Assembly: GCF_015711605.1 (NCBI RefSeq)
Contig: NZ_JABTEZ010000005.1
Coordinates: forward strand, 124,001 to 188,000
Reading direction: 5' to 3'
DNA from: Planomonospora sp. ID67723
GTDB lineage: Bacteria; Actinomycetota; Actinomycetes; Streptosporangiales; Streptosporangiaceae
DNA: 64,000 nt
In this document: one piece after another, positions 20,279 through 40,464 of the stretch
How the letters are laid out: each line of letters starts with the position of its first letter
How positions within the stretch are numbered: position 1 is the stretch's first letter
The notes under the pieces: generated by a model
Told to the model about the DNA's origin: nothing
Databases searched by the model: none
What the model saw: only the letters and a program-made list of their open reading frames with translations
Program-made: the position numbers and the translations under genes

Positions 20279-22861
20279 GTGAGAGCTATCCGCAGGTTCA
20301 CCGTCCGAACTGTCCTTCCTTCGGAGCTGGCCTCTCTCGGCGAGCTCGTGCAGAACCTCCGCTGGTCCTGGCACCCCGAGACGCTCGACCTGTTCGCCGA
20401 GGTCGACCCGGTCACCTGGGAGCGGGTCGGCCACGACCCCGTGGCGCTGCTCGGCGCGGTCGAGCCCGAGCGCCTCCGCGAGCTGGCCGCCGACCGCCGC
20501 TTCCTGCGGCGGCTCGCCGACGCGGCCGACGACTTGCGCGAATACATGACCGCCCCGCGGTGGTACCAGTCCCTTCCGGACGCCGCCCGGGCCATCGGCT
20601 ACTTCTCCCCCGAGTACGGCATCGCCGCCGCGCTGCCGCAGTACTCCGGGGGCCTCGGCATCCTCGCCGGGGACCACCTCAAGGCCGCCAGCGACCTCGG
20701 CGTGCCGATCCTCGCGGTCGGCCTGCTCTACCGGCACGGCTACTTCACCCAGTCCCTGTCGCCCGAGGGCTGGCAGCTGGAGCACTACCCGTCGCTCGAC
20801 CCCGGCGGCCTGCCGCTGACGCTCCTGAAGGAGGAGGACGGCACGCCCGTCCGGATCCGGATCGGCCTGCCCGAGCACCGCGTGCTCCACGCCCAGGTCT
20901 GGGTGGCCCAGGTGGGCAGGGTCCCGCTGCTGCTGCTCGACTCCGACGTGGCCGAGAACGACAACGCCGCCCGCGATGTCACCGACCGCCTGTACGGCGG
21001 CGGCACCGACCACCGCCTCAAGCAGGAGCTGCTGCTCGGCATCGGCGGCGTGCGCGCCATCCGCGCCTACTGCAGGAGCACCGGCCACCCCGAGCCCGAG
21101 GTCTTCCACACCAACGAGGGCCACGCCGGCTTCCTCGGCCTGGAGCGCATCCGCGAGCTCACCGAGGCCAGACTCTCCTTCGAGGAGGCGCTGGAGGCGG
21201 TGCGCGCCGGGACCGTCTTCACCACCCACACCCCGGTGCCCGCCGGGATCGACCGCTTCCCGACCGAGCTGATCGCCCGCCAGTTCGGGGGAGAGAACTC
21301 CTGGCCGACGGTCCCGGTCGACCGCATCCTGGCGCTCGGCGCCGAGGAGGAGCCCGGCAAGTTCAACATGGCCGCGATGGGCATGCGCCTGGCCCAGCGG
21401 GTCAACGGCGTCTCGGAGCTGCACGGCGAGGTCAGCCGGGAGATGTTCCAGGGGCTCTGGCCGGGCTTCGACGTGGCCGAGGTGCCGATCGGCTCGATCA
21501 CCAACGGGGTGCACGCCCCCACCTGGGTCGGCCGGGAGATCATGGAACTGGCCGGTCGGGAGCTGCCCTCGCTGGTGGACCGGGCCCAGGGCTGGGAGGG
21601 CGTGAGCAAGATCTCCGACGAGGAGATCTGGGGCATCCGCGGAAGGCTCCGCGCCCGCCTCGTCGAGGCGGCCCGGGTCCGGCTCCGCCGCTCCTGGATG
21701 GACCGGGGGGCGTCCGCCGCCGAGCTCGGCTGGATCGACGACGCCCTCGACCCGGAGGTGCTGACCATCGGCTTCGCCCGCCGGGTGCCCTCCTACAAGC
21801 GCCTGACCCTGATGCTCTCGGACCCGGTACGGCTCCGCGGGCTGCTGCTCGACCCCGACAAGCCGGTGCAGATCGTGATCGCGGGCAAGGCCCACCCGGC
21901 CGACGAGGGCGGCAAGAAGCTCATCCAGCAGATCGTGAAGTTCGCCGACCAGGAGAGCGTGCGGCACCGCATCGTCTTCCTGCCCGACTACGACATGGCC
22001 CTGGGCCAGCTCATGGTCCAGGGCTGCGACGTGTGGATGAACAACCCGCTGCGTCCGCTGGAGGCCTGCGGGACCAGCGGCATGAAGGCCGCGCTCAACG
22101 GCGGGCTCAACCTCTCCATCCGCGACGGCTGGTGGGACGAGTGGTACGACGGCACCAACGGCTGGGCCGTCCCCACCGCCGACGGCGTCGCCGACCCCGA
22201 CCGCCGCGACGAGCTGGAGGCGGGCGCGCTCTACGACCTGATCGACCACGAGGTGGCCGACCGGTTCTACGACCGGCCCGCCGACGGCCTGCCCCGCCGC
22301 TGGCTGGAGATGGTCCGCCACACCCTGTCCTCGCTGGGCCCCAAGGTCCTGGCCGGCCGGATGCTGCGCGACTACGTCGTGGGCCTCTACACCCCCGCCG
22401 CCAAGTCGGCGCGGGTCCTCACGGCGGACGGCAACGAGCAGGCCAAGGGCTTCGCCGCCTGGAAGCTGCGGGTCGGCCGGGCCTGGCCCGGCGTGCGGGT
22501 CGAGCACGTCGAGGCCGCAGGGCTGGGCGACACCCCCGAGGTCGGGGCCGCGCTGGAGCTGCGGGCCACGATCGCCCTGGGCGAGCTGGAGCCCGGGGAC
22601 ATCCAGGTCCAGGCCGCCTACGGCCGGGTCGGCCTCCACGACGAGCTGGTCTCACCCGCCTACTCGTCCCTGAGCGTCGAGTCCGAGGGCGACGACGGCA
22701 GGGCGGTCTTCAGCGGCACGATCCCGCTGGTGCGCACCGGGGCCTTCGGCTACACCGTCCGCGTCGTCCCGGCGCACCCGCTGATGGCAGCCTCCGCCGA
22801 GCTCGGCCTGATCGCCGTGCCCGAGGAACCCGCCGGCATGACCAACGGCACCCTCCGCTGA
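20279..22861 (+). CDS. glgP: alpha-glucan phosphorylase (GT35)
   Basis: An 860-residue PLP-dependent phosphorylase, releasing glucose-1-phosphate from alpha-glucan ends. It has the short-type N terminus (VRTVLPSELASLGELVQNLRW) seen in actinobacterial and archaeal GlgP rather than the rabbit type. The PLP lysine is Lys603 in GTSGMKAALNGG, preceded by the substrate loop DVWMNNPLRPLEACG. FSPEYGIAAALPQYSGGLG (~108-126) marks the glucan-binding N-terminal domain. The GTG start at 20279 begins the conserved sequence. Placed divergently from glgE, it pairs glucan breakdown with the GlgE synthesis genes. Confidence 0.95.
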   Translation: MRAIRRFTVRTVLPSELASLGELVQNLRWSWHPETLDLFAEVDPVTWERVGHDPVALLGAVEPERLRELAADRRFLRRLADAADDLREYMTAPRWYQSLPDAARAIGYFSPEYGIAAALPQYSGGLGILAGDHLKAASDLGVPILAVGLLYRHGYFTQSLSPEGWQLEHYPSLDPGGLPLTLLKEEDGTPVRIRIGLPEHRVLHAQVWVAQVGRVPLLLLDSDVAENDNAARDVTDRLYGGGTDHRLKQELLLGIGGVRAIRAYCRSTGHPEPEVFHTNEGHAGFLGLERIRELTEARLSFEEALEAVRAGTVFTTHTPVPAGIDRFPTELIARQFGGENSWPTVPVDRILALGAEEEPGKFNMAAMGMRLAQRVNGVSELHGEVSREMFQGLWPGFDVAEVPIGSITNGVHAPTWVGREIMELAGRELPSLVDRAQGWEGVSKISDEEIWGIRGRLRARLVEAARVRLRRSWMDRGASAAELGWIDDALDPEVLTIGFARRVPSYKRLTLMLSDPVRLRGLLLDPDKPVQIVIAGKAHPADEGGKKLIQQIVKFADQESVRHRIVFLPDYDMALGQLMVQGCDVWMNNPLRPLEACGTSGMKAALNGGLNLSIRDGWWDEWYDGTNGWAVPTADGVADPDRRDELEAGALYDLIDHEVADRFYDRPADGLPRRWLEMVRHTLSSLGPKVLAGRMLRDYVVGLYTPAAKSARVLTADGNEQAKGFAAWKLRVGRAWPGVRVEHVEAAGLGDTPEVGAALELRATIALGELEPGDIQVQAAYGRVGLHDELVSPAYSSLSVESEGDDGRAVFSGTIPLVRTGAFGYTVRVVPAHPLMAASAELGLIAVPEEPAGMTNGTLR

Positions 22862-22929: not shown

Positions 22930-24369
22930 ATGGGGAGAAGCGCTGATCTGGTGGTGCTGGGAGCCGGGCCGTCCGGCCTGGCGGCGGCGTGGCGGGCGGC
23001 CCGGCGAGGGCTGTCCGTCGTCGTGCTGGAGCGGGCCGGGCACGTGGGCGGGCTGTCGGCGAGCTTCGAGGTGGCCGGGGTCCGGGTCGACCACGGCAGC
23101 CACCGGCTCCATCCGGCCACCCCGCCCCACCTCATGGCCGACCTGCGCGGCCTGCTCGGCGACGACCTGCAGACGCGCCCGCGCAACGGCAGGCTCCGGA
23201 TCGCCGGGCGGTTCGTCGGTTTCCCCCTGCGGGCGGGAGAACTGGCCAGGCGGCTGCCCCCGGGCCTGTTGGCCGGGGTGGCGCGCGACACGGTGGCGGC
23301 GCCCTTGCGGGGCGGGAGCCGTACGTCCCCGGCCGGAGGCGGTGCGCCCGGTCGTGCGGACACCTATGCCGGGGCGCTGCGCGCGAGTCTCGGCCCGGCC
23401 CTCTACGACGCGCTCTACGCGCCGTACGCCGTGAAGCTCTGGGGCCTGCCGGGCGAGGAGATCGACGGGGACCAGGCCCGCAAGCGGGTCACCGCCGACA
23501 GCCCGTGGAAGATCGCCAGGCGGATCCTGCGCGGGCAGTCGAACGGGCAGGGGAAGATCTTCCACTACCCCCGGCGCGGCTTCGGCCAGATCGTCGACGC
23601 GCTCGCCGAGGCCGCCACGGCGGCCGGGGCGGAGATCCGCCTCGGTACGGCCTGCACCCGGATCGAACCCGCCGAGGACTCCGTGGTGGTACACACCTCC
23701 GGAGAACGGGAAGCCGCGGCGGGGGACCGCATCGAGGCCGGGCGGGTGTTCTCCACGATCCCGATGCCCGCGCTGGCCCGGCTGGTGCGGCCCGGACCGC
23801 CGGAGGAGGTCGTCCGGGCGGCCGGGCGGCTCGCGTTCCGGGCGATGACGCTGGTCTACGCGGTGCACGAGGGAGGCCGGTGGACACCGTACGACGCGCA
23901 CTACCTTCCCGGTCCGGAGACCCCGGTGACCCGGATCTCCGAGCCGGCCAACTACCGCATCAGCGCCGACGACCCGGCCGGCCGCACCGTGCTCTGCTTC
24001 GAGATCCCGTGCGCCGCCGGTGACGAGATCTGGACGACGGAGGACTTCTCCGGACTGGTCCGCGAGACCCTCGCCGTCTCGGGGCTGCCCCCGGTCGACC
24101 TGGCGGACGTGGTCGTACGGCGGGTGCCGCACGTCTACCCGGTCTACGAGACCGGGTACGCCGCCCACCTGGCGGGCCTGGACGCCTGGGCCGGGACCGT
24201 CCCGAACGTGACCACCTTCGGCCGCCTCGGGCTGTTCGCGCACGACAACACCCATCACGCCATGGCCATGGGCTACGACGCCGTCGACTCCCTCACCTCC
24301 GCCGGCTGGGACGTCTCCGCCTGGCGGGCCGCCCGCAGCCGCTTCGCCGAGCACGTCGTCGAGGACTGA
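22930..24369 (+). CDS. FAD-dependent oxidoreductase (protoporphyrinogen oxidase / amine oxidase-like)
   Basis: A 479-residue flavoprotein. The N terminus is a dinucleotide-binding fold, LVVLGAGPSGLAAAW (7-21), ending in an acidic residue (VVLERAGHVGGLSA). HGSHRLHP and FPLRAGELARRLPPG follow, then DALYAPYAVKLWGLPGEEI and HYPRRGFGQIVDAL, a pattern shared with protoporphyrinogen oxidase-like and UDP-galactopyranose mutase-like enzymes found near surface-polysaccharide genes. The C-terminal FAD contact is GRLGLFAHDNTHHAMAMG. Substrate unknown. It follows glgP by 68 bases. Confidence 0.75.
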   Translation: MGRSADLVVLGAGPSGLAAAWRAARRGLSVVVLERAGHVGGLSASFEVAGVRVDHGSHRLHPATPPHLMADLRGLLGDDLQTRPRNGRLRIAGRFVGFPLRAGELARRLPPGLLAGVARDTVAAPLRGGSRTSPAGGGAPGRADTYAGALRASLGPALYDALYAPYAVKLWGLPGEEIDGDQARKRVTADSPWKIARRILRGQSNGQGKIFHYPRRGFGQIVDALAEAATAAGAEIRLGTACTRIEPAEDSVVVHTSGEREAAAGDRIEAGRVFSTIPMPALARLVRPGPPEEVVRAAGRLAFRAMTLVYAVHEGGRWTPYDAHYLPGPETPVTRISEPANYRISADDPAGRTVLCFEIPCAAGDEIWTTEDFSGLVRETLAVSGLPPVDLADVVVRRVPHVYPVYETGYAAHLAGLDAWAGTVPNVTTFGRLGLFAHDNTHHAMAMGYDAVDSLTSAGWDVSAWRAARSRFAEHVVED

Positions 24370-25212: not shown

Positions 25213-25731
25213 ATGACCGAGACACCCTCCGACCGCCTGGACGATCGCCCGGAGCCGCCGGTCGACCCCGACGTGGACCTGCGGATCCCCGAGCAGCGGG
25301 ACGAGCTGCGGCGGGCCCCGTGGAGCACGCTGGCGGCGGTCTCGGCCGGCGGGGTGATCGGGGCGCTGGCCCGCCACGGGCTCTCCGAGGCGTTCCCGCG
25401 CCCGGCAGGCGGTTTCCCCTGGGCCACGTTCGCGGTCAACGTGATCGGGTGCGCGCTGATCGGCGTGCTGATGGTGCTCATCGGCGAGACCCGGGCGGCG
25501 CACCGGCTGGCCCGTCCGTTCCTCGGGGTCGGGGTGCTGGGCGGGTTCACCACGTTCTCCGCCTACGTCGCCGACATCGGGCGGCTGGCCGCCGGCGGCG
25601 CCCCGCGGCTCGCCCTGGTCTACCTGTTCGGCACCGTCGCCGCCGCGGTGGCCGCCACCCAGCTCGCCGCCTCCGGGACCCGCGCGATCACCCGGCTCCG
25701 CCGTACGGACCGGCCGGCGGGCGGCTCATGA
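25213..25731 (+). CDS. crcB: fluoride efflux channel CrcB/FluC, subunit 1
   Basis: A 172-residue CrcB/Fluc protein, a dimeric fluoride-selective channel of the cytoplasmic membrane. It has four membrane segments, FPWATFAVNVIGC (~73-85) with the conserved pore Asn, and GGFTTFSAY (~113-121), the sodium/fluoride site. The ~38-residue acidic N-terminal extension (DRLDDRPEPPVDPDVDLR) is unusual for the family. A second crcB follows 118 bases later, so the two may form a heterodimer as known for paired Fluc genes. Confidence 0.93.
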   Translation: MTETPSDRLDDRPEPPVDPDVDLRIPEQRDELRRAPWSTLAAVSAGGVIGALARHGLSEAFPRPAGGFPWATFAVNVIGCALIGVLMVLIGETRAAHRLARPFLGVGVLGGFTTFSAYVADIGRLAAGGAPRLALVYLFGTVAAAVAATQLAASGTRAITRLRRTDRPAGGS

Positions 25732-25849
25732 GGCCGAGACTACCGCGGTGGAGCGGTGTGAACCTCTGCGGATCGAGGGGACCGGTGCACGGTCCGGCCC
25801 ACCGGCGGAATCCGGTCGTGGGGCCGTACCGCTTCACCGGGGGGCCGGG

Positions 25850-26209
25850 GTGAGCGCGCTGCTGGTCGCGCTGGGCGCGGCCCTCGGCGCGCCGCTGCGC
25901 TACCTGGCCGACCGGGCCGTCCAGGCCCGCCACGACGGGACCTTCCCGTGGGGCACCTTCGCCGTCAACACGGCCGGATCGGCGCTGTTCGGCCTCCTGC
26001 TGGCGCTGCCCGCCGACGGCTGGGTGACGGCGCTGGCCGGGACCGGGTTCTGCGGCGCGCTGACCACCTACTCCACCTTCGCCTACGAGACGGTACGGCT
26101 GGCGGAGACCGGCGAGCGCCCTCGGGCACTCCTCAACGTCGTCGCGAGCGTCGTCGGCGGCCTGGGCGCCGCCTGGTGCGGCACCCTCCTGGCCCAGGCC
26201 CTGTCCTGA
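25850..26209 (+). CDS. crcB: fluoride efflux channel CrcB/FluC, subunit 2
   Basis: A 119-residue second CrcB protein with four membrane segments, FPWGTFAVNTAGS (pore Asn) and GALTTYSTFAYE (ion site). The usual length is reached with GTG 25850, which has a run of G upstream; the longer in-frame ATG 25748 would add a non-family, basic N terminus. Together with the first copy it forms the crcB pair seen in Gram-positive bacteria, in which the subunits face opposite ways in the membrane. Confidence 0.92.
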   Translation: MSALLVALGAALGAPLRYLADRAVQARHDGTFPWGTFAVNTAGSALFGLLLALPADGWVTALAGTGFCGALTTYSTFAYETVRLAETGERPRALLNVVASVVGGLGAAWCGTLLAQALS

Positions 26210-26327: not shown

Positions 26328-28079
26328 TCAGGGGGAGTTGAGCTCGCGGTGGACGGCGGGGATGACCTTGCGGAGGTAGCGGCCCAGCTTGACGAAGGAC
26401 TCGCCGGTGGCGCGGAAGGCGTAGCGGATCGGGACCTCGTGGTAGCGGTAGCCCTTGGCGAGCAGGTCGAGGGTGAGGATCTGGGCGTAGTTGTAGTCGT
26501 GGATCACCTCGGCGGCGCGTGCCGCACCGGGCGAGAAGGCCCGGTAGCCGCTCTGGCCGTCGGTGACGGCGTGCCGGGTCATCCAGCGGACCCAGGCGGT
26601 GAGGACCCGGTTGCCGAAGCGCCGGTGCGGGAGCATCCGGTCGATGGTCCCGGCGAACCGGGAGCCCACCACGTAGTCGGCCTCGCCGGACAGCACCGGC
26701 TCCGCCAGGGACTCGACGTCCTCGGGGAAGTACTCCAGATCGGCGTCCAGGTAGACCACCGCCGCCGGGTCGAGCCGCACGGCCTCCGCCAGCCCCCGGC
26801 GTACGGCGGCGCCCAGACCGAGGTTGTGCGGCTGGGAGACCACGGTCGCGCCGGCGTCGAGGGCGAGGGAGGCCGAGGCGTCCGAGGAGCCGTCGTCGAT
26901 CACGATCGTGACCAGCGGGCGCCCGGCGACGACGGCAGGAAGGCGCTTGACGACCTCGGCGACCGTCGCCTCCTCGTTGAAGACGGGGACGAACGCGACC
27001 ACCGGCGCGTGCGGGGCGACCGGCAGCGGGTGAGGACGGGGGGGAAGGGTCCGGGGCAGCCTGAGCCTGGTGGGAGTCACGAGCGCGACACCTCCGACGA
27101 CGAGGGAGTAGGCGGTCTTCAGGGCGTGGGTGAGCAGGGCGACCGCGAAGGCCGGGCCGGAGGCGACGCCGAGCGCGGTCAGCGCCGCCGTCGCCGCGGC
27201 CTCGTAGGAGCCGAACCCGCCGGGGGTCACGGCCACGGTCTGGGCGGCGATGGTCACGGCCGTCACGGCCACCGCCTCGGGAGGGGTCAACCCTACTCCG
27301 GTCAGCCGCGCCACCTCGTAGACCACCGCCGCCTCCAGCACCCAGGCCGCCGCGGCCGCGGCGAAGACGACGGGGAGAAGCGCCGTCCCGCTCCCGCGCC
27401 GCCGGGCCCGCCCGCCCTCGCTCCGCTCGGAATCGCCGGCGGCACCGGGGGCGGAGGACGGGAGGCGGCCCAGCCAGACCGCCCCCGCGAGCGTCGCGAG
27501 GGCCAGTGCGGCGGCCAGCGGCCAGATCCAGGGGCCGGTCAGGCCGGTGACCAGGGCAGGGGCGGCGACGAGGGCCAGGAGCGCGACGGCGAGCAGGTCG
27601 GCGGAGCGGAGGGTCACGGTGGAGGCGATCACCGGGGCGGCGGGCAGGGAGGTCCGGCGCAGGACCGTGGTCACCCGCAGGGCCTCGCCCAGGCGGAACG
27701 GCAGGACGTGGTTGCCGAGCAGGGAGACGTGCAGCGCGGCCCAGGACAGGCCGGGGGACAGGCCCGGCAGCACCCGGCACCAGGACCACGTTCGCAGGCC
27801 GAACGCGCAGCCGTACATCGCGAGCGCGAGAAGCACCCCGAGCGGGTCGCGCAGCAGCGCCCGGCCCGCCGAGAGGAGGTCGGGACCGGAGACGACCCGG
27901 GCGAGGTAGACCGCGGCGGCGGCGAGGACCGCCAGGCCGAGACCGCGCCGGACCACCTTGAGGAGGGGCGGACGCCGGGCCGACCCGGAGGGGGGCGTCC
28001 GCGGCACCCGCGCCGGCCCGGCGAGAACGAGGAGGGCACGTCGGACCTGCTCAGAGAGGGGTCGGGATGGAGCACGCAC
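26328..28079 (-). CDS. fusion of flippase-like membrane domain and GT2 glycosyltransferase
   Basis: A 583-residue fusion. Residues ~40-330 are a polytopic domain of the YbhN/lysylphosphatidylglycerol-synthase-membrane type, with LGNHVLPFRLGEALRV and the typical VAVTPGGFGSYEAAA. Residues ~345-583 are a GT2 domain of the dolichol-phosphate-mannose synthase kind: FVPVFNEEATV, IVIDDGSSDAS, YLDADLEYFPED and VVGSRFAG. It probably glycosylates a polyprenyl-phosphate or lipid carrier at the membrane. GTG 28079 has AAAGGA seven bases upstream. It diverges from the Fe(III) transport operon and shares its iron box. Confidence 0.85.
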   Translation of the reverse strand: MRAPSRPLSEQVRRALLVLAGPARVPRTPPSGSARRPPLLKVVRRGLGLAVLAAAAVYLARVVSGPDLLSAGRALLRDPLGVLLALAMYGCAFGLRTWSWCRVLPGLSPGLSWAALHVSLLGNHVLPFRLGEALRVTTVLRRTSLPAAPVIASTVTLRSADLLAVALLALVAAPALVTGLTGPWIWPLAAALALATLAGAVWLGRLPSSAPGAAGDSERSEGGRARRRGSGTALLPVVFAAAAAAWVLEAAVVYEVARLTGVGLTPPEAVAVTAVTIAAQTVAVTPGGFGSYEAAATAALTALGVASGPAFAVALLTHALKTAYSLVVGGVALVTPTRLRLPRTLPPRPHPLPVAPHAPVVAFVPVFNEEATVAEVVKRLPAVVAGRPLVTIVIDDGSSDASASLALDAGATVVSQPHNLGLGAAVRRGLAEAVRLDPAAVVYLDADLEYFPEDVESLAEPVLSGEADYVVGSRFAGTIDRMLPHRRFGNRVLTAWVRWMTRHAVTDGQSGYRAFSPGAARAAEVIHDYNYAQILTLDLLAKGYRYHEVPIRYAFRATGESFVKLGRYLRKVIPAVHRELNSP

Positions 28080-28105
28080 TCGGGGTCCTTTAAGGTTTCG
28101 CTCAG

Positions 28106-28124
28106 TGAGGTTAGGCTACCTTTA
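28106..28124. promoter_or_regulatory. iron box (DmdR/IdeR-type operator)
   Basis: TGAGGTTAGGCTACCTTTA matches the actinobacterial iron-box consensus TTAGGTTAGGCTAACCTAA at 15 of 19 positions. It is framed by GCTCAGT and ACTGAGC, a further perfect inverted repeat (28100-28130). It lies 23 bases before the epimerase start and 27 bases from the divergent GT2 fusion start, so one iron-bound repressor dimer pair could control both directions. Family knowledge: DmdR/IdeR represses iron-uptake genes when Fe(II) is plentiful. Confidence 0.75.
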
Positions 28125-28146
28125 CTGAGCGTGAGGAGAGGACCGG

Positions 28147-29049
28147 GTGTCAGCTGTCGTGACCGGCTCGGCCGGATTCATCGGCCGGATGCTGGTCGAG
28201 ACGCTCGTCGCCTCGGGGGAGAGGGTCATCGGCATCGACCGGGTGGCCCAGCCGCCGAGGCCCGGCCTGACCGTTCTCACCGCCGACCTCCTCTCCGGCG
28301 ACGAGCTCGTCCGGGCCGCCCTGGAGGACGCCGACGTCGTCTACCACCTCGCCGGCTGCCCCGGCGTGCGCGACCGCAGCTCCGACGTCGCCTGGCGGCG
28401 GCGGCGCGACAACGTGCTCGCCGGGGCCCGGGTCCTCGACGCCGTCCCCCGGAACGTCCCGCTGCTCGTCGCCTCCTCCAGCTCGGTGTACGGCGGGGCG
28501 CGCGACGGCCGTCCCAGCCACGAGGCCGATCCGCTGCGCCCCGTCGGCGGTTACGCCAGGAGCAAGACCGTGCTGGAGCGCCTGTGCGCCGAGCGGCTCG
28601 CCCGCGGCGGCCGTACCACCGTGATCCGGCCGTTCACCGTGGCGGGTGAGGGCCAACGGCCCGACATGGCGCTCTCGCTCTGGCTGGCGGCGGCCCGCCG
28701 CGGGCGCCCGCTCCGGGTGCTCGGCTCGCTCGACCGCACCCGTGACGTGACCGACGTACGGCAGGCCGCCCGGGCCATGGCCGACCTCGCCGCCACGGGC
28801 GCCCAGGGCGTCGTGAACGTCGGCACGGGCCGCGGCCAGAGCCTCCGCGCGATGGCCGCCGCCGTCGCCGAGGCCCTGGGCACCGAGGTCTCCTTCGCCG
28901 TCGAGCCGGCCCCCGGCGTCGAGCCCGGCGCCTCCCTCGCCGACACGCGCCGGCTCCGCTCGCTGATCGGCTGGTCCCCCGAGACCGACCTCCGCGACCT
29001 CGTCCGCCGCCAGGCCGCCGCCTCCCGTCCCCTGGTGGAGGCGACATGA
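28147..29049 (+). CDS. NAD-dependent sugar epimerase/dehydratase
   Basis: A 300-residue extended short-chain dehydrogenase. TGSAGFIGRML (6-16) is the NAD-binding GxxGxxG loop. The catalytic site is SSSSVYGG followed by GGYARSKTVLE with the Tyr-x3-Lys pair (~138-142). FTVAGEGQ and the C-terminal W-x-P-E-T-D-L match nucleotide-sugar epimerases. Substrate is unknown. GTG 28147 follows GAGGAGAGG closely and lies just after the iron box. Its stop overlaps the next gene's start (ATGA), so it leads a translationally coupled operon. Confidence 0.88.
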   Translation: MSAVVTGSAGFIGRMLVETLVASGERVIGIDRVAQPPRPGLTVLTADLLSGDELVRAALEDADVVYHLAGCPGVRDRSSDVAWRRRRDNVLAGARVLDAVPRNVPLLVASSSSVYGGARDGRPSHEADPLRPVGGYARSKTVLERLCAERLARGGRTTVIRPFTVAGEGQRPDMALSLWLAAARRGRPLRVLGSLDRTRDVTDVRQAARAMADLAATGAQGVVNVGTGRGQSLRAMAAAVAEALGTEVSFAVEPAPGVEPGASLADTRRLRSLIGWSPETDLRDLVRRQAAASRPLVEAT

Positions 29050-30719
29050 CCGCCGGGCACCCGCCGGAGACCCCTGCCCCGGGCGGTTCCAGGGCAGCGG
29101 CTCCGGCGGTTCCGGCGGGCGCCGTGGCCCTGGCGGCGGTGGTCGCGACGGCGGCGGCGCTGCTCGGGATCGGGGTGCGGGCGCGGTTCGGCGGGCACGT
29201 TGCCGTCGACGAGCCGCAGTACCTCCTCACCGCACTGTCGCTCTTCGAGGACTTCGACCTCGACATCACCGACGAGCTGGCCGAGCGGCGCTGGGCGCCC
29301 TGGGCGGGGACCGAGCCGCTGCCGGTGCAGACCGAGGTGCTCGCCGACGGCACGCAGATCAGCCCGCACGACCCGCTGCTGCCGATCGTCCTGGCCGCCC
29401 CGATGGGCCTGGGCGGGTGGGTCGCGGCCAAGGCCGTCATGGCGCTCATGGCGGGCGTGCTCGCCGCGCTGACCCTGTGGACGGCGGTCAGGAGGTTCGC
29501 GGTCCCGGTGCGGCTCGCCACCGGCGGCGTGCTCCTCGCCTCGGCCTCCGCGCCCTTCGCGGTCTACGGACAGCAGGTCTACCCGGAGCTCCCGGCGGCG
29601 CTGGCCGTCGCCGCCGCACTGGCCGTGCTGACCGGGCCCGCCTTCGCGGGCCGGACGCGCAGGGCGGGGACGGAACCCGGAACCGGAGGCCCGCCGGTGC
29701 GGCGGGTCATGCGGGACGCCGCCGCGTTCGGGCTGTCGATCACCGCGCTGCCGTGGCTGTCGGTCAAGTACGCCCCGGTCGCCGCGGCGCTCGCCCTGCT
29801 CGGCCTGTGGCGGCTGCGGGGCGACCGGGGCGTGCTGCTCTCCCTGACCGGCGGCTTCGCCGCGATGGGCGCCGCCTACCTGGTGATCCACCGCCTCGTC
29901 TGGGGCGGCTGGACGGTCTACGCCAGCGGCGACCACTTCCAGGAGTCGGGCGAGTTCGGCGTGATGGGCTTCGACCCCAACTATCTGGGCCGCGCCGTAC
30001 GACTGGTCGGGCTGATGGTCGACCGGGGATACGGCCTGGCCGCCTGGCAGCCCGCCTGGCTGCTGCTCCTGCCCGCCACCGGGTACGGCCTCTGGCTCGT
30101 CCTGCGCCCGCGCGGTCCCCACGGGGCCCCGGCCTCCCCCGGCGTGCCCGCCGCCGATCACCGTGCCGATCACCGTGCCGATCACAGTGCCGCCGGTCGC
30201 AGCCCCTTCGGCGCCGCCGTGCTGCTGCTCCCGCTGACCGCGGGCTGGCTGACCGCGACCTTCGTCGCGCTGACCATGAACGGCTACTGGTGGCCGGGCC
30301 GCCAGACCGTGGTGGTGCTCCCGCTCGCCCTCCTGCTCGTCCTGGTCCTCCTGCGCGACAGGCCCGGCCCGCTCCGCCTGACCGGGCTCGGGCTCGGCCT
30401 GGCCGGGCTGGCGAACTACGCCTGGCTGCTGGCCGACGGCTACGCCGTGCGGATCACCTGGGTGAGCGGTTTCGAGCAGGTCGGCTCGCCGGTCTACCGG
30501 GCCGTCCGCCCCCTCCTGCCCGACTACCGGCTCGGCTGGGACGGCTTCTGGCCGCTCCACCTGGGCTGGATCCTGGTCTCCCTCCTCCTGATCGCGTACG
30601 GCACGCCGTACCTCACGAAAGGAAGAACACATGAAGTCCACCCCGATCCGGGTGACCGCGACGGTGCTGGCCCTGGCCGGCGCACTGACGTTCGGCCTGA
30701 CCGCCTGCGGCGGCGGTAA
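29046..30719 (+). CDS. polytopic membrane glycosyltransferase-like protein (GT-C type)
   Basis: A 557-residue membrane protein with roughly ten hydrophobic segments. After the first helix comes an outside-facing loop with VAVDEPQYLLTALSL (~54-68); an acidic D-E-P-x-Y motif there is characteristic of GT-C/GT39-like enzymes that use polyprenyl-phosphate sugars. Later helices alternate with Gly/Leu-rich stretches, and a Tyr/Trp-rich external loop (VWGGWTVYASGDHF) follows. The last ~33 residues are charged and run 89 bases over the next gene in another frame, so the true end is sure but the tail is not conserved-looking. Function is inferred from architecture only. Confidence 0.7.
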   Translation: MTAGHPPETPAPGGSRAAAPAVPAGAVALAAVVATAAALLGIGVRARFGGHVAVDEPQYLLTALSLFEDFDLDITDELAERRWAPWAGTEPLPVQTEVLADGTQISPHDPLLPIVLAAPMGLGGWVAAKAVMALMAGVLAALTLWTAVRRFAVPVRLATGGVLLASASAPFAVYGQQVYPELPAALAVAAALAVLTGPAFAGRTRRAGTEPGTGGPPVRRVMRDAAAFGLSITALPWLSVKYAPVAAALALLGLWRLRGDRGVLLSLTGGFAAMGAAYLVIHRLVWGGWTVYASGDHFQESGEFGVMGFDPNYLGRAVRLVGLMVDRGYGLAAWQPAWLLLLPATGYGLWLVLRPRGPHGAPASPGVPAADHRADHRADHSAAGRSPFGAAVLLLPLTAGWLTATFVALTMNGYWWPGRQTVVVLPLALLLVLVLLRDRPGPLRLTGLGLGLAGLANYAWLLADGYAVRITWVSGFEQVGSPVYRAVRPLLPDYRLGWDGFWPLHLGWILVSLLLIAYGTPYLTKGRTHEVHPDPGDRDGAGPGRRTDVRPDRLRRR

Positions 30720-30762
30720 CGAGGACGACGGCGGTTCCGGCTCCTCCAGCTCCTCCGAGTGA
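30631..30762 (+). CDS. 43-residue iron-operon lipoprotein
   Basis: A small gene within the overlap region: ATG 30631, stop 30760-30762, with GAAAGGAA seven bases upstream. The product has a basic start (MKSTPIR), a hydrophobic core and lipobox GLTAC with Cys26. Only 18 residues would remain after processing: Gly-rich, acidic (NEDD) and Ser-rich (SGSSSSS). It sits between the GT-C protein and the Fe(III)-binding lipoprotein, the first 89 bases inside the former. A coincidental signal sequence is possible but the lipobox, ribosome site and operon position make it credible. Role unknown. Confidence 0.7.
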   Translation: MKSTPIRVTATVLALAGALTFGLTACGGGNEDDGGSGSSSSSE

Positions 30763-30799: not shown

Positions 30800-31816
30800 A
30801 TGTCGCTGCGCAGGCTGGTCGCCGCCGCTCTGATCCCCTTGGCGCTGCTCGCGTCCGCCTGCGGCGGCGGAGACGGAGAGAGCTTCGACGACGACTCCCT
30901 CGTCATCTACTCCGGGCGCAACAAGAACCTCGTCGGCCCGCTGCTCGACAAGCTGAAGACCGCGACCGGCCTGGACGTCCAGGTCCGGTACGGCGACAGC
31001 GCCGAGCTGGCCGCGCAGATCCTCGAAGAGGGCGCGGACACGCGGGCCGACCTGTTCTTCTCCCAGGACGCCGGGGCGCTCGGCGCGCTGGGCAAGCACC
31101 AGGCGCTCGCCCCGGTGGCCCCGGAGGCGCTGGCGAAGGTCCCGGCCGAGTACCGCGGCTCCGACGGCACCTGGGTGGGGGTCTCCGGCCGGTCCCGTGT
31201 GATCGTCTACGACCCCCGGACCGTCACCGTCCCGCCCAAGAGCGTCTTCGAGCTGACCGACCCCAAGTGGCGGGGCCAGGTCGGCTGGGCTCCGACGAAC
31301 GCCTCCTTCCAGTCCTTCGTCACCGCGATGCGCGTGGTCTCCGGTGAGGACAAGGCCCGGCAGTGGCTTGAGGCGATGAAGGCCAACGGCGCGCAGACCT
31401 TCTCCAACAACGTCAACATCCTCGACGCGGTCGACGGGGGCAAGCTCCGGCTCGGCCTGATCAACCACTACTACTGGTACGAGAAGGTGGCCGAGAAGGG
31501 CCAGGGCGGGGTGCCGTCCCGGCTGGCCTACCTGCCCGGCGGCGATCCGGGCGCGCTGGTCAACGTGGCGGGCGTGGGCGTGCTGAAGGGCTCCAAGCAC
31601 GCCGCCGCCGCGCACAAGGCGGTGGACTTCCTGCTCGGCACCGAGGCGCAGAAGTTCTTCGCCGACACCACCAAGGAGTACCCGCTGGTCTCAGGCGTGG
31701 CGATCGCCCCCGGGCTGCCGCCGTTCGACTCGCTCAAGGGCCCCCAGGTCGACCTGTCCAAGCTCGACTCGATCGAGCAGACCATCGCCCTGCTGCAAGA
31801 CGTGGGCCTGATCTGA
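30800..31816 (+). CDS. Fe(III) ABC transporter substrate-binding lipoprotein (FbpA-like)
   Basis: A 338-residue iron-binding lipoprotein of the ferric-binding (FbpA/FutA) class. The lipobox is LASAC with Cys21; the mature protein starts Gly-Gly-Gly-acidic. IYSGRNKNLVGPLL begins domain 1, and RADLFFSQDAGALGAL is the class marker. The iron-ligand tyrosines are in NHYYWYE, Tyr224/Tyr225, as in FbpA. It is followed two bases later by the permease gene. AAAGGAAAG precedes ATG 30800. Family knowledge: it captures free or weakly chelated Fe(III) and passes it to the permease. Confidence 0.93.
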   Translation: MSLRRLVAAALIPLALLASACGGGDGESFDDDSLVIYSGRNKNLVGPLLDKLKTATGLDVQVRYGDSAELAAQILEEGADTRADLFFSQDAGALGALGKHQALAPVAPEALAKVPAEYRGSDGTWVGVSGRSRVIVYDPRTVTVPPKSVFELTDPKWRGQVGWAPTNASFQSFVTAMRVVSGEDKARQWLEAMKANGAQTFSNNVNILDAVDGGKLRLGLINHYYWYEKVAEKGQGGVPSRLAYLPGGDPGALVNVAGVGVLKGSKHAAAAHKAVDFLLGTEAQKFFADTTKEYPLVSGVAIAPGLPPFDSLKGPQVDLSKLDSIEQTIALLQDVGLI

Positions 31817-31818
31817 CG

Positions 31819-33381
31819 ATGGCGATTCGCCAGATTTCGGCTGGAACGGCGACTCGCCGGACTCCGGCGGGGACGGCCGCCCGCCGCATCCCGGCGGGGC
31901 TGCTGGCGCCGGCCGGGGTGACGGCGGCGCTGGCGCTCCTGCCGGTGGGATACCTGCTGGTGCGCGCGGGCGAGGGCGGCGTCGGCGGCGTGACCGGGAC
32001 CCTGCTGCGGACCAGGACGGCGGAGCTGGCCCTGCGCAGCCTGGGCCTGGCCGCCGTGGTGACCGCGCTCTGCGTGGCCATCGGGATCTCCCTGGCCTGG
32101 CTGGTCGTCCGGAGCGACCTGCCGGGCCGCCGGGTCTTCGGCGTGCTGGCGGCGCTGCCGCTCGCCGTGCCGTCCTACGTCGCCGCCTACACCTGGGTGG
32201 CCGCGACCGACATCGAGGGGTTCGCCGGGTCGGTTCTGGTGCTGACGCTCTGCAGCTACCCCTACGTCTACCTGCCGGTGGCCGCTGCCCTCAGCCGGAT
32301 GGACCCGGCGACGGAGGAGGTCGCGCTCTCCCTGGGGCGGGGGCGGCTCGGCGTCGTGCTCCGGCAGCTGCGGCCCTCGGCCGCCGCCGGGGCGCTGCTG
32401 GTCGCCATGTACGTGCTCGCCGAGTTCGGCGCGGTGGCGATCATGCGGTTCGACGTGTTCACCACGCAGATCTACACCTCCTACCGGGCCGGCTTCAACC
32501 GGACCCCGGCCGCGGTGCTCGGCCTGCTGCTGGTGCTGGTCACGCTGCTGATCGTGGCGGCCGAGTCCCGCACCCGGGGCCGGGCCGCCTACGCCATGCG
32601 CGGCGCCCCGGCGCGCAGGCCGCCGGTGATCCGGCTCGGCGGCGCGGCCCGGGCGGGAGCGCTGGCCTGGTGCGCCGCGCTGGCCGGGCTCGCGGTCGGC
32701 TTCCCGCTGGTGAGCATCTGCTACTGGCTGGCCGACGGCTCCTCGGCGGGGGTGGACGCGACCGTGCTCGCCGAGGCGGTCGCCGCCACGCTCGGCGTCG
32801 CGGCGGCGGGAGCGCTGCTCACCACGGCGCTGGCCGTGCCGGTCGGCGTCGTCGCGGCCCGGTACCGCGGACGCACCGCGGCCTTCCTCGAGCAGTCCAC
32901 CTATGTCGGGCACTCGCTGCCGGGCATCGTCATGGCGCTCTCCCTGGTGTTCTTCGCGGTCCGCTACGTCCCGGCGATCTACCAGCGCTGGCCGTTGCTG
33001 GTGATCGCCTACGCGGTGCTGTTCATGCCCGCGGCCGTCGGCGCCGTGCGGGCCTCGGTGCTGCAGTCGCCGCCGGTCCTGGAGGAGGTCGCCCGCTCGC
33101 TGGGGCGCAGTCCGCTGCGGGCCCTGCGCGAGGTCACCCTCCCGCTCGCCCTGCCCGGCGTGCTCGCCGGGGCGGCGCTGGTCTTCCTGACCGCGATGAA
33201 GGAACTGCCCGCGACCCTGCTGCTGCGGCCCACCGGCGTGGAGACCCTCGCCACCGAGCTGTGGACGCAGACCGGCTCGGGGGCATACGGCGCCGCCGCG
33301 CCGTACGCCGCGCTGCTGATGCTGCTCGCGGCCGTCCCCGGGTTCGTGCTCGGCCGCCGCTCTCTCAAGGAGGTCTCTTGA
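31819..33381 (+). CDS. Fe(III) ABC transporter permease (FbpB-like, fused double domain)
   Basis: A 520-residue permease with about twelve hydrophobic segments forming two BPD-transporter domains in one chain, as in FbpB. Each half ends with the EAA loop: EEVALSLGRGRLGVVLRQL (~174-192) and EEVARSLGRSPLRALREV (~421-438), where the ATPase docks. The first ~35 residues are an Arg/Ala/Thr-rich cytoplasmic tail. It begins two bases after the binding protein stop and ends overlapping the ATPase start (TTGA), so the three genes are translationally coupled. Confidence 0.93.
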   Translation: MAIRQISAGTATRRTPAGTAARRIPAGLLAPAGVTAALALLPVGYLLVRAGEGGVGGVTGTLLRTRTAELALRSLGLAAVVTALCVAIGISLAWLVVRSDLPGRRVFGVLAALPLAVPSYVAAYTWVAATDIEGFAGSVLVLTLCSYPYVYLPVAAALSRMDPATEEVALSLGRGRLGVVLRQLRPSAAAGALLVAMYVLAEFGAVAIMRFDVFTTQIYTSYRAGFNRTPAAVLGLLLVLVTLLIVAAESRTRGRAAYAMRGAPARRPPVIRLGGAARAGALAWCAALAGLAVGFPLVSICYWLADGSSAGVDATVLAEAVAATLGVAAAGALLTTALAVPVGVVAARYRGRTAAFLEQSTYVGHSLPGIVMALSLVFFAVRYVPAIYQRWPLLVIAYAVLFMPAAVGAVRASVLQSPPVLEEVARSLGRSPLRALREVTLPLALPGVLAGAALVFLTAMKELPATLLLRPTGVETLATELWTQTGSGAYGAAAPYAALLMLLAAVPGFVLGRRSLKEVS

Positions 33382-34391
33382 AGCTCACCGTCACGGACGT
33401 GCACAAATCCTTCGGCGCGACCCAGGTGCTGCGCGGGGCCTCGCTCACCGTGCAGGAGGGCGACCTCGCCGCGGTGCTCGGTCCGTCCGGCTGCGGCAAG
33501 ACCACGCTGCTGCGGATCGTGGCGGGCTTCGAGAACCTGGACACCGGGTCGGTGCGGATCGGTGACCGCGAGGTCGCCGGTCTCCCGCCGGAGAAGCGCA
33601 AGGTCGGGATCGTGCCGCAGGAGGCGGCGCTCTTCCCGCACCTGTCGGTGGCCCGCAACGTCGGGTTCGGGCTGCCGCGCGGGTCGTCGGGGCGGACCGA
33701 GCGGATCGAGGAGTGCCTGGAGCTGGTCGGGCTGGCCGGGTACGGCGAGCGCATGCCGCACCAGATCTCCGGCGGGCAGCAGCAGCGGGTGGCCCTGGCC
33801 CGGGCGCTCGCCCCCCGGCCCGGGGTGGTCCTGCTGGACGAGCCGTTCAACGCGCTGGACCGGTCCCTGAGGGTGAGCGTCCGCGACGAGGTCCGGGCGG
33901 CGCTGAAGCGGGCCGGGGCGACCGCCGTGCTCGTCACGCACGATCAGGAGGAGGCGCTGTCCATGGCCGACACCGTCGCGGTCATGCGGGAGGGGCTGAT
34001 CGTCCAGGAGGGCACGCCCGCCGCGGTCTACGCCGCCCCGCGCGACCTCGGCGTGGCGACGTTCGTGGGCGAGGCGGTGGTCCTCGCGGCCTCCGGGGGC
34101 GGCCGGGACACCGTCTCGTGCGAGCTCGGCAGCCTGCCGCGGCGGGGCGACGGGCCCGCCGGGCCGGGCCGGGTCGCGCTCCGGCCGGAGCAGTTCGTGC
34201 TCCGCACGCCCGGGGAGGGTTCCGGCGGGCTGGTCGAGCGGGTGGAGTTCTTCGGGCACGACGCGGCCGTGACGGTCGCGCTGGAGTCGGGGACCGTGAT
34301 CCGGGCCCGCACGCGCGGCGACGTGCCGCACCGGCCGGGCGACCGGGTCGGCGTCACGGTCGAGGGGCCGGTGCTGTTCTTCGCCGGGTGA
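33378..34391 (+). CDS. Fe(III) ABC transporter ATP-binding protein (FbpC-like)
   Basis: A 337-residue ATPase. Walker A is GPSGCGKTT (34-42), the Q-loop VPQEAALFPHLSV, the signature ISGGQQQRVALARALA and Walker B VVLLDEPFNALD, with the switch His in VTHDQEEALS. A C-terminal TOBE-like domain (~245-337) includes VALRPEQ, typical of the FbpC class. TTG 33378 with AAGGAGG upstream overlaps the permease stop. It energises the permease for ferric iron import. It is the last gene of the iron-box operon; a GC-rich gap follows. Confidence 0.95.
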   Translation: MKLTVTDVHKSFGATQVLRGASLTVQEGDLAAVLGPSGCGKTTLLRIVAGFENLDTGSVRIGDREVAGLPPEKRKVGIVPQEAALFPHLSVARNVGFGLPRGSSGRTERIEECLELVGLAGYGERMPHQISGGQQQRVALARALAPRPGVVLLDEPFNALDRSLRVSVRDEVRAALKRAGATAVLVTHDQEEALSMADTVAVMREGLIVQEGTPAAVYAAPRDLGVATFVGEAVVLAASGGGRDTVSCELGSLPRRGDGPAGPGRVALRPEQFVLRTPGEGSGGLVERVEFFGHDAAVTVALESGTVIRARTRGDVPHRPGDRVGVTVEGPVLFFAG

Positions 34392-34551: not shown

Positions 34552-36663
34552 GTGAACGCATGGACGTTCGAGACCCAGCCGGGCGCGCTGGGCGACAGCG
34601 CGGTGACACTGGTTGAGGGCAGCTCCTTCTGCGTCTGTTCGAGCAGCGGTGACATCGTGCCGGGCGGGGCGCAGGGGATCTACCACGCCGACACCCGGTT
34701 GTTGTCGCGCTGGGAGCTGAAGGTGGACGAGTCCCCGGTCGAGCCGCTCCGGGTGCTCCCCGCCGAGCCCTACCACGCGACGTTCCTCGGCCGGACGCGC
34801 CCGAGGCCGGGCCAGGCGGAGAGCACCCTGATGGTGATCAGGGACCGCTACGTCGGCGGCGGGCTGCGGGAGGACCTGACCCTGCGCAACCTGTCCGACG
34901 AGGCCGCGGGCTGCGTGGTCACCCTTCAGATCGGCTCCGACATGGCCGACCTGTTCGAGGTGAAGGGCGGCCACGTCCAGCACCTGTCGGACGTGGAGGT
35001 GACGGCCGACACGTCGGGGCTGCTGATCATGGCGGCCGGCCGGTCGCGCGGGGCCCGGGTGGTGACCGATCCCATACCGTCGGCCACGCCGGGGCTGCTC
35101 ACCTTCCGGGCGGTCGTGCCCGGCCGCGGCGACTGGGTCGTCACCGTGCAGGTCAATCCGATCCTGGAGGGGGAGGAGTCGCCCGCCTGGTTCTCCACCC
35201 AGCACCCGCTGGAGCACGCCGAGCCCGCCAGGCGGCGCGCCGACTGGGAGCGGATGAGCCCGGTCGTCACCACCTCCAACCGCGTCCTCGCCCAGATCCT
35301 GCGCCAGTCCAGGGAGGATCTCGGCTCCCTGCGGCTCTTCGAGCCGGACAAACCCGGCGAGCCGCCGTCGGTCGCCGCGGGCGCGCCGTGGTTCATGACG
35401 CTGTTCGGCCGCGACTCCCTGCTGACCTCCTGGATGGCGCTCCCCCTGGACCAGTCCCTGGCCCTGGGCACCCTGCGCCGCCTGGCCCGCCTGCAGGGCA
35501 CCGTGGACGACCCGCTCACCGAGGAGGAACCGGGCAAGATCCTGCACGAGATCCGCTTCGGGGCGCAGACCGGCACGACGCCGTTCGCCAGCCACGCCTA
35601 CTACGGCTCCGTCGACTCCACCGCGCTGTTCGTGATGCTCCTGGGCGAGCTGCGCCGGTGGGGCCTGCACAAGGAGGCGGTCGACGAGCTCATGCCGTAC
35701 GCCGACGCCGCCCTCGGATGGATCTCCCGCTCGGCCGACCCGTTCCTGTACTACCGCCGCAAGACCGACCACGGCCTGCTCAACCAGGGCTGGAAGGACT
35801 CCTTCGACGGGATCAACTTCGCCGACGGGACCCTGGCCCGCCCGCCCATCGCCCTGGCCGAGGTGCAGGGATACGTCTACGCCGCCTACATCGCCCGTTC
35901 CCACTTCGCCCGCGAGGCCGGGGACCGGGCGCTGGAGGAGCGGTGGACCTCCCGGGCGGTGCGGATCAGGGAGGCGTTCAACGAGCGGTTCTGGCTGCCG
36001 GACCGCGGCTACTACGCGATGGGCCTCGACGGCGGCGGGCGGGCCATCGACGGCCTCGGCTCCAACATGGGCCACTGCCTGTGGACCGGCATCGTCGACG
36101 AGGACAAGGCGGGCGCCGTCGCCGAGCACCTGCTCTCACCCGCGATGTTCACCGGGTACGGCGTGCGCACCCTGGCCTCCACGATGGGCGCCTACAACCC
36201 GATGAGCTACCACAACGGCTCGGTCTGGCCGCACGACAACGCCCTGGTCGCGGCGGGCCTGATGCGCTACGGCTTCGCCGAGGGGGCGCGCCGGATCGCG
36301 TTCGGGCTGATGGACGCGGCCAAGGCCTTCAACTGGCGGCTGCCGGAGCTGTTCTGCGGGTTCGACCGGACCGAGTTCGGCGTGCCGGTGCCGTACCCCA
36401 CCTCGTGCGCCCCGCAGGCCTGGGCCGCCGCCGCCCCCATCCAGCTCGTCCGGACCCTGCTCCGCCTCGATCCGTGGGTGACGCACAACCAGGTGTGGCT
36501 GGATCCGGTCGGGCTGAAGAACCTGCGCATCTCGGGGCTCCAGATCGCGGGCGCCCGGGTCACGATCGAGGTGGGTGACGAGGGAGTCTCCGTCACCGGG
36601 CTGCCGGAGGGAGTGACCCTGTTCAACGAACCGCGAAGTCCGATGACCGCAGCCCTGCGGTAG
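34552..36663 (+). CDS. glycogen debranching-type amylo-alpha-1,6-glucosidase
   Basis: A 703-residue protein. An N-terminal debranching-enzyme domain (~10-230), with GDIVPGGAQGIYHADTRLLSRWEL, precedes an (alpha/alpha)6 barrel (~240-690) of the amylo-alpha-1,6-glucosidase kind. AAGAPWFMTLFGRDSLLTSW, KTDHGLLNQGWKDSFD and PHDNALVAAGLMRYG carry the conserved Asp, Trp and Glu/Asp residues of this fold. It probably removes alpha-1,6 branches, or hydrolyses a related alpha-glucoside; the exact substrate is not shown. GTG 34552 has GGGGGAG upstream. It belongs functionally with the alpha-glucan genes at 10-23 kb although separate. Confidence 0.85.
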   Translation: MNAWTFETQPGALGDSAVTLVEGSSFCVCSSSGDIVPGGAQGIYHADTRLLSRWELKVDESPVEPLRVLPAEPYHATFLGRTRPRPGQAESTLMVIRDRYVGGGLREDLTLRNLSDEAAGCVVTLQIGSDMADLFEVKGGHVQHLSDVEVTADTSGLLIMAAGRSRGARVVTDPIPSATPGLLTFRAVVPGRGDWVVTVQVNPILEGEESPAWFSTQHPLEHAEPARRRADWERMSPVVTTSNRVLAQILRQSREDLGSLRLFEPDKPGEPPSVAAGAPWFMTLFGRDSLLTSWMALPLDQSLALGTLRRLARLQGTVDDPLTEEEPGKILHEIRFGAQTGTTPFASHAYYGSVDSTALFVMLLGELRRWGLHKEAVDELMPYADAALGWISRSADPFLYYRRKTDHGLLNQGWKDSFDGINFADGTLARPPIALAEVQGYVYAAYIARSHFAREAGDRALEERWTSRAVRIREAFNERFWLPDRGYYAMGLDGGGRAIDGLGSNMGHCLWTGIVDEDKAGAVAEHLLSPAMFTGYGVRTLASTMGAYNPMSYHNGSVWPHDNALVAAGLMRYGFAEGARRIAFGLMDAAKAFNWRLPELFCGFDRTEFGVPVPYPTSCAPQAWAAAAPIQLVRTLLRLDPWVTHNQVWLDPVGLKNLRISGLQIAGARVTIEVGDEGVSVTGLPEGVTLFNEPRSPMTAALR

Positions 36664-38678: not shown

Positions 38679-38736
38679 GGCGGCTGTTGGCTGATCTGTC
38701 CTGGTAGATCAGGCTTTAACGGTATCGTGCACATTT

Positions 38737-40439: not shown

Positions 40440-40464
40440 GGGGAGCGGCTGTGGGGGTGCTGCC

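Follow-up and report, generated by a model that had tools for sequence, protein, structure and literature searches.

Regulation by iron-dependent repressors of the DmdR/IdeR/DtxR type, Fe(III) import by FbpABC/HitABC/FutABC transporters and sugar transfer by GT-C enzymes that use lipid-phosphate sugars are the described systems closest to the locus of this work. It shares with the first the box consensus, the position of the box over the -10 region and the presence of one Fe_dep_repr_C gene in the genome, but here the predicted targets include a whole lipid-linked sugar pathway. With the ferric importers it has in common a binding protein, a two-domain permease and an ATPase with a TOBE domain, although in this case the importer is genetically tied to a glycosylation module. 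The lipid-phosphate-sugar GT-C systems include ArnC/ArnT, RgtE/RgtA-D, PpgS/Rv3779 and the protein O-mannosyltransferases, and like them the locus presents a predicted GT2 polyprenyl-phosphate sugar synthase together with a GT-C transferase; it differs from them in the fusion of GT2 to an LPG_synthase-type transmembrane (TM) domain, in the predicted uronic acid, in the iron control and in the iron lipoproteins that are its likely acceptors.

Two further comparisons concern these lipoproteins. PEP-CTERM/exosortase is a tag-and-enzyme system, and the resemblance lies in a short conserved signature on unrelated cargo in genomes with a dedicated enzyme set, whereas the signature described here is N-terminal, adjoins the lipobox and the presumed modification is a sugar. 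The N-terminal positions of the NCBIfam model NF038033 (FEA1-related lipoprotein), ∼1-60 and up to 119, match signature lipoproteins whose cargo is different or absent; the scores, 31-57 bits, do not reach the 250-bit cut-off of the model. Its name covers the Fea1 cargo and says nothing of the shared N-terminus, of the link to the glycosylation genes or of the forms without cargo.

The initial annotation of the DNA analysed here (the window, a stretch of 64,000 nucleotides at G000:C5:124001-188000) had proposed a 19-bp iron box framed by an inverted repeat, which would control glycan and Fe(III) transport genes jointly in an arrangement considered non-standard. Here we have followed up this proposal by computation in the window, in its genome and in related loci.

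Results

The iron box TGAGGTTAGGCTACCTTTA lies at 28106-28124 (no strand assigned), within a 67-bp gap (28080-28146) with divergent genes on either side, and agrees at 15 of 19 positions with TTAGGTTAGGCTAACCTAA, which we take to be the DmdR/IdeR consensus, just as had been annotated. The whole genome (8.3 Mb) holds 11 sites with at most three mismatches to this consensus and none for the reversed control pattern. The position matrix used for scoring was built on eight of these 11 sites (the other three were omitted, their neighbours being unscanned); seven of the eight adjoin genes with a family match (hydroxamate siderophore biosynthesis, FecCD, siderophore-binding protein, FhuF, ABC ATPase and ATP-grasp) and one adjoins a gene without any. 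Scoring with such a matrix had been proposed as a check of the site, and it gave 19.1 bits for the window box, while the second-best non-overlapping site within the 64 kb reached 7.4 bits and the maxima of 200 dinucleotide shuffles averaged 7.2 bits (SD 2.6), none of the 200 attaining 19.1. The same 19-mer is present in 8 of the 12 relatives compared (L041, L042, L043, L046, L049, L052, L053 and L060), and GTGAGGTTAGGCTAYCTTTA is conserved in 10 of the 13 sequences compared. The box is therefore real, as it is far above background and conserved in place.

The 7-bp inverted repeat said to frame the site does exist in the window (arms GCTCAGT, 28100-28106, and ACTGAGC, 28124-28130), but it is not conserved: the arms agree at 7/7 positions in the window only, at 5/7 in the nearest relative and at 2-6/7 in nine others. 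Because full agreement is confined to the window, we rejected the repeat as a part of the site and regard it as probably incidental. A putative sigma-70-type promoter can be read on the plus strand at 28089-28117, with TTTAAG (28089-28094), a 17-bp spacer and TAGGCT (28112-28117), so that the box overlaps this -10-like hexamer. Given this overlap and the 67-bp divergent gap, both divergent genes would be expected to start beside the box and both directions to be affected. A single Fe_dep_repr_C gene (109 bits) was found in the genome, and its product would be the cognate repressor; the gene of the DmdR/IdeR homologue is at G000:C1:1644347.

Domain matches agree with the annotated surroundings of the box, between a flippase-like/GT2 fusion and an operon with an epimerase, a GT-C-like protein and FbpABC. 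The importer is predicted from its three components, all on the plus strand. The FbpA-type Fe(III)-binding lipoprotein (30800-31816) matches FbpA, HitA and YfuA in the PDB with E values down to 9e-73, and its HYY aligns with the NYY or HYY of solved ferric-binding proteins, which contains the tyrosine pair that functions in ferric binding. It is followed by an FbpB-type permease with two BPD_transp_1 stretches (31819-33381) and by an FbpC-type ATPase with a TOBE domain (33378-34391). The plural "lipoproteins" of the annotated operon is also borne out, with FbpA and a 43-aa lipoprotein at 30631-30762. We considered whether FbpA itself has a Ser-Gly linker and rejected this, as the FbpA linkers are short wherever a lipobox was recognised.

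Other genes in and around the module were also recorded. Tandem genes for CrcB (fluoride channel) lie at 25213-25731 and 25748-26209, between the UGM-like gene described below and the GT2 fusion, and the matrix scan of the window gave no high-scoring box at them. The module is flanked by glycogen phosphorylase-like (20279-22861), debranching enzyme-like (34552-36663) and GT4 (36716-37858) genes. Outside it, a protein with a C-terminal DUF6395 (38727-40439) adjoins an M55 D-aminopeptidase gene (40402-41307).

The first gene to the right of the box (28147-29049, plus strand) encodes a UDP-glucuronate 4-epimerase-like SDR epimerase, whose best PDB match is MoeE5 (E 6e-34). The arginine of its motif GQRPDMA aligns with Arg185 of the Bacillus cereus UDP-glucuronate 4-epimerase (UGAepi), which is described as holding the carboxylate of UDP-galacturonate (PMC12338863). 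This critical arginine is present in 24/24 orthologues, as RPDM in 19 of them and as RPGM or RSDM in the other five. Moreover, a second type of epimerase found at module loci (n = 20; below 150 bits and 28-36% identity to the window enzyme) has RPDM in 19 of 20 cases, mostly as YFTVYGPRQRPDM. That the same substrate mark appears in two epimerases so unlike each other speaks for UDP-galacturonate. A flavoprotein resembling UDP-galactopyranose mutase (UGM) is encoded at 22930-24369 (plus strand) and belongs to the conserved set although it lies 2 kb from the GT2 fusion here; its model (pLDDT 91.6) is structurally closest to UDP-galactopyranose mutases and has the UGM fold. We name it only UGM-like because its score with the NCBIfam UGM equivalog is 32.5 bits, far below the cut-off of 303.75. 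A furanose form of the sugar is made possible by this protein, as judged from its modelled fold, and the active-site motifs and folds together suggest that the sugar is probably galacturonic acid. UDP-glucose dehydrogenase was tried as a discriminating partner and rejected as uninformative because UDP-sugar dehydrogenases are present alike in genomes with and without the module (44/44 genomes checked, 22 of each).

To the left of the box, the fusion of an LPG_synthase_TM (flippase-like) domain with a DPM1/ArnC-like GT2 domain is encoded on the minus strand at 26328-28079 (Pfam PF03706 and PF00535; PDB matches to dolichol-P-mannose synthase and ArnC), and we predict that it is a polyprenyl-phosphate sugar synthase plus, possibly, a flippase. 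The GT-C membrane glycosyltransferase (557 aa; 29046-30719, plus strand) has no Pfam family and its nearest named relative is from Planomonospora venezuelensis. Its model (pLDDT 87.6) shows the GT-C fold of ArnT, Pmt4, ALG12 and oligosaccharyltransferases, and the acidic pair near its N-terminus, D55 E56, is invariant in 60 sequences. ArnT is among the best structural matches, protein O-mannosyltransferases fit equally well, and the GT-C arabinosyltransferases AftB and EmbB, which act on wall polysaccharide, also appear. That the acceptor would be the Ser/Thr of a protein is suggested by linkage only.

An alignment of 11 GT-C proteins, used alone as query, yielded 78 loci in named records, from the best 80 of 103. 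They are spread across Actinomycetota, in Streptosporangiales, Pseudonocardiales, Mycobacteriales, Propionibacteriales, Nitriliruptorales, Euzebyales, Egibacterales, Acidimicrobiales and other orders, and the set that recurs in them comprises the GT2-flippase fusion, the UDP-glucuronate-4-epimerase-like protein, the UGM-like flavoprotein, the GT-C protein and the Fe(III) importer, in an order that varies among loci. The 48 loci with full flanks (at least 4.5 kb on both sides) contain the GT2 fusion in 46 cases, the ferric binding protein in 44, the permease in 42, the UGM-like gene in 41, the epimerase in 35 and a DtxR-type repressor gene in 21, and the clade structure of the sample weakens these and all the other co-occurrence counts. 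By ORF clustering, a DtxR/IdeR-family repressor gene is close to the module in 26/78 loci (for example L076:13427-14098). L092 and L108, whose records bear the titles Euryarchaeota and Acidobacteria, respectively, were probably mis-binned. Neither an FbpA-like protein nor a permease was found at four full-flank loci that have the GT-C gene (L086, L090, L117 and L057); two of them, L086 and L090, have the GT2 fusion directly beside the GT-C gene and a gene of the Fea1 family close by.

When 149 relatives were searched, the GT-C protein was found in 11 genomes, a twelfth match (G056) being a weak fragment. The sole FbpA-like match (E ≤1e-15) falls inside the GT-C neighbourhood in 9 of these 11; in G100 this match is on a different contig, and G101 gave none. 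FbpA-like proteins are also present in 39 of the searched genomes that have no GT-C protein, which means that import does not need the glycan genes. In a sample of 296 genomes of the phylum, 29 have a GT-C match at E ≤1e-20, and we compared 15 strong and 11 weak loci (G000 and two partial matches were left out). The binding protein is present at 11/15 strong loci vs 0/11 weak ones, which are distant homologues; one of these 11 (L165) has the GT2 fusion and the repressor gene.

Classed by an N-terminal motif rule, the binding proteins are FbpA-like in 44 cases (window included) and FutA-like in 14, L055 being placed in the latter class by a loose fit. The class has changed at least eight times on a quick GT-C tree, a count from one tree in which 21 of 68 inner branches are open. 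Unlike Fe(III) binding proteins thus seem to have been paired repeatedly with the same glycan enzymes, suggesting that the link is to Fe(III) and not to one neighbour. In two loci of the window's family (L123 and L125) glgP, the box and FbpABC follow each other directly, and tblastn found there no GT2 fusion, epimerase, GT-C or UGM-like gene, only a distant flavoprotein (39-45 bits) downstream. We read these two loci as a natural empty site, compatible with either gain or loss of the glycan genes.

Iron boxes recur at the relatives. A box of at least 15 bits is present in the leader (upstream of the GT2 fusion, the epimerase or the binding protein) in 35 of 65 scorable loci, counted per locus with near relatives included and 13 of the 78 loci being unscorable, vs 45 of 3250 control windows taken from those loci (1.4%), and 50 column-permuted matrices gave a mean of 0.44/65 and a maximum of 9/65. 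Leader starts were taken from HMM matches; the earlier tblastn starts, which were poor for the GT2 fusion, gave a box at the GT2 fusion in 14/62, at the epimerase in 21/46 and at the binding protein in 20/57. A second locus sample, which shares several contigs with the first and is not independent of it, had such a box in 8/12 (control 10/600). In the remaining 30 of the 65 loci no box reaches 15 bits; the GC content is under 0.5, where the matrix discriminates poorly, in 12 of them, and GC-rich loci without a box (L062, L065, L108 and L116) count against our main reading. The distant GT-C homologues have no such box before the gene (0/11), and two of them (L166 and L167) have a 19-20-bit box elsewhere in the locus. 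The glycan promoter has its own box in L048 (31.1 bits), L050 (20.7), L070 (25.6), L102 (20.7) and L162 (22.1), in all of which the importer is apart or was not found nearby. In L050, L070 and L102 the glycan genes are separated from the transporter and both have a box, which supports the joint iron control that had been proposed for the window.

The 43-aa lipoprotein (30631-30762, plus strand), our proposed glycan acceptor, is read in a different frame from the GT-C gene, whose 3' end it overlaps, and has GAAAGGAAG before its ATG, the lipobox LTAC followed by GGGNEDDGGSGSSSSSE, and a Gly/Ser/acidic tail. It is found in the same place in L041, L042, L043 and L052, and with another sequence in L045, L046 and L054; it was not found after the GT-C gene in the Streptosporangium/Nonomuraea loci (L044, L060, L049 and L053). 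A small Ser/Gly-tailed lipoprotein without the VR signature described below follows the GT-C gene in 10/78 loci. Very short lipoproteins with CGSDDGRHVRDV and without Ser-Gly repeats lie beside the epimerase at L095:12983-13132 and L105:12982-13125.

In 34/78 loci there are lipoproteins that carry the signature C-x-DDGAxVRx[ILV], after which Ser/Gly/Ala repeats come in most cases. Ten longer ones were compared with Pfam: three match Fea1, one M75/EfeO, one Iron_transport (barely above the cut-off) and one cupredoxin, one more cupredoxin is below the cut-off and three have no match. Others end after the Ser-Gly repeats and are thus cargo-free, and some have their own iron box (L050, 20.7 bits; L067, 22.7; L078, 26.6; L082, 23.1). 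A 32-position model of the signature scores at least 33 bits in 15/25 module genomes vs 0/38 others (Fisher 2.7e-8), a limit set after seeing the matches, the top match without the module being 29.9 bits (G261); without the nine genomes that supplied rows to the model the figures are 6/16 vs 0/38 (3e-4), and within the stratum of the same phylum 12/15 vs 0/11. Clade partly confounds the occurrence of the signature. No match at this limit was found in the five module genomes from the window's own family, and the window mini-lipoprotein lacks the VR signature and has no match to NF038033.

EfeO proteins show a similar feature. An M75 match is present in 12/25 module genomes and 10/33 others, and EfeO has a Ser-Gly linker in 6 of these 12 (G101, G105, G127, G160, G174 and G385; G090 and G100 were not read), while none of 11 EfeO proteins from module-free genomes has it. 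In four module genomes of the window's family the Ser-Gly stretch of EfeO is short (SSGDDGADGGSSSGSGS in the window's genome) or absent. In G127 and G105, at a distance of ∼20 kb from the GT-C gene, EfeO-type lipoproteins with Ser-Gly segments at both ends are encoded (L207:2567-3592 and L208:2436-3455, respectively), and their iron boxes score 24.9 and 26.5 bits. By a strict rule, (SG/SA) at least five times after the lipobox, there are 30 such lipoproteins in 1,270,763 bases of module loci (30/78 loci), one in 338,637 control bases and none elsewhere in the window (47,301 bases); the short tail of the window mini-lipoprotein fails this rule. It counts against our main reading that Ser/Gly/Ala-rich linkers are also present in other lipoproteins of the window's genome; those near its other iron boxes are of an ordinary kind.

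Discussion

The box and its conservation, the linkage of the genes, the folds and the lipoprotein signature come directly from the computations, and the predicted regulation and linkage of the module are well supported. We consider it fairly probable that iron starvation de-represses an O-glycosylation pathway that adds an acidic sugar to Ser-Gly segments of iron-uptake lipoproteins. With ample iron, a repressor of the DtxR family would occupy the box at 28106-28124 and shut both divergent transcripts, and under starvation the FbpABC importer and a dedicated envelope glycosylation pathway would both be expressed. The epimerase would convert UDP-glucuronate to UDP-galacturonate, which the UGM-like flavoprotein would perhaps turn into its furanose form; the GT2 domain would put the sugar on polyprenyl phosphate, the fused TM domain would aid flipping, and the GT-C enzyme would move the sugar, outside the cell, to serines in the Ser/Gly-rich tails or linkers of lipoproteins. 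The acceptors would be the mini-lipoprotein in the window and Fea1, EfeO and cupredoxin lipoproteins in relatives, and the resulting acidic, membrane-anchored glycan could gather Fe(III) near FbpA, or protect and space these proteins. We infer the repression itself, the identity of the sugar, the acceptor and the role in iron capture; the acceptor, for which linkage and co-occurrence are the basis, is the least certain step.

The main rival to a lipoprotein acceptor is that in iron-starved cells the glycan genes add an acidic sugar to a general wall polymer (teichoic acid- or arabinogalactan-like), in the way that ArnT or mycobacterial GT-C enzymes modify lipid A or polysaccharide, the Ser-Gly lipoproteins being mere spacers. 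The structural likeness of the GT-C model to ArnT, AftB and EmbB fits this explanation, as do the 21 of 48 full-flank loci in which no Ser-Gly lipoprotein was found by our set rule. However, the model fits protein O-mannosyltransferases no less well than ArnT, the signature lipoproteins are concentrated in module genomes, in or near the module, and some of them carry an iron box of their own, and we judge wall decoration to be rather unlikely.

That the importer alone is purposefully iron-regulated, and the glycan genes ride along through the shared neighbourhood or read-through, seems very improbable to us. FbpABC without glycan genes nearby does keep its box (7/7 loci, L123-L129, 13.0-37.2 bits); but glycan promoters have separate boxes, the linkage survives changes in gene order and in binding-protein class, and the distant GT-C homologues have the binding protein in 0/11 loci and the GT2 fusion in one only. 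It would also be conceivable that the glycan, an acidic polysaccharide or glycolipid that is secreted or bound to the membrane, itself acts in a siderophore-like way and is held by the lipoproteins, since the epimerase and the UGM-like enzyme predict an unusual acidic sugar. The families present in at least six loci include, however, no further obvious polymerising or exporting glycan gene, and the single GT-C and single GT2 suggest one added sugar, so we regard such a product as very improbable.

Going back to glycosylated lipoproteins, a broader form of this reading is that there is a phylum-wide, iron-repressed tag-and-glycosylate system, in which C-x-DDGAxVRx[IL] and Ser-Gly repeats would mark extracytoplasmic iron proteins (Fea1, EfeO/imelysin, Fe2+-transport-like, cupredoxin and cargo-free mini-lipoproteins) for the addition of galacturonic, possibly galactofuranuronic, acid by the GT2-flippase/GT-C pair, giving a proteoglycan-like, iron-gathering coat of serglycin-like build beside the Fe(III) importer. 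We put this forward tentatively, as an idea that is quite possible and still somewhat doubtful.

All the parts of the module are of known kinds; its combination, iron control and signature lipoproteins are described in no title or abstract among the matches listed from the open-licence literature. The arrangement is no local oddity, since it recurs across the phylum. If our reading is true, an iron-regulated surface glycan would take part in Fe(III) uptake without siderophores in many Actinomycetota, uncultured lineages from marine and soil habitats among them, and a modification tag would exist for iron lipoproteins. Testable functions would also follow for an unclassified GT-C family, the GT2-flippase fusion, the UGM-like flavoprotein and lipoproteins of 40-90 aa, a class so far overlooked, and FEA1-type iron assimilation proteins would be linked with glycosylation.
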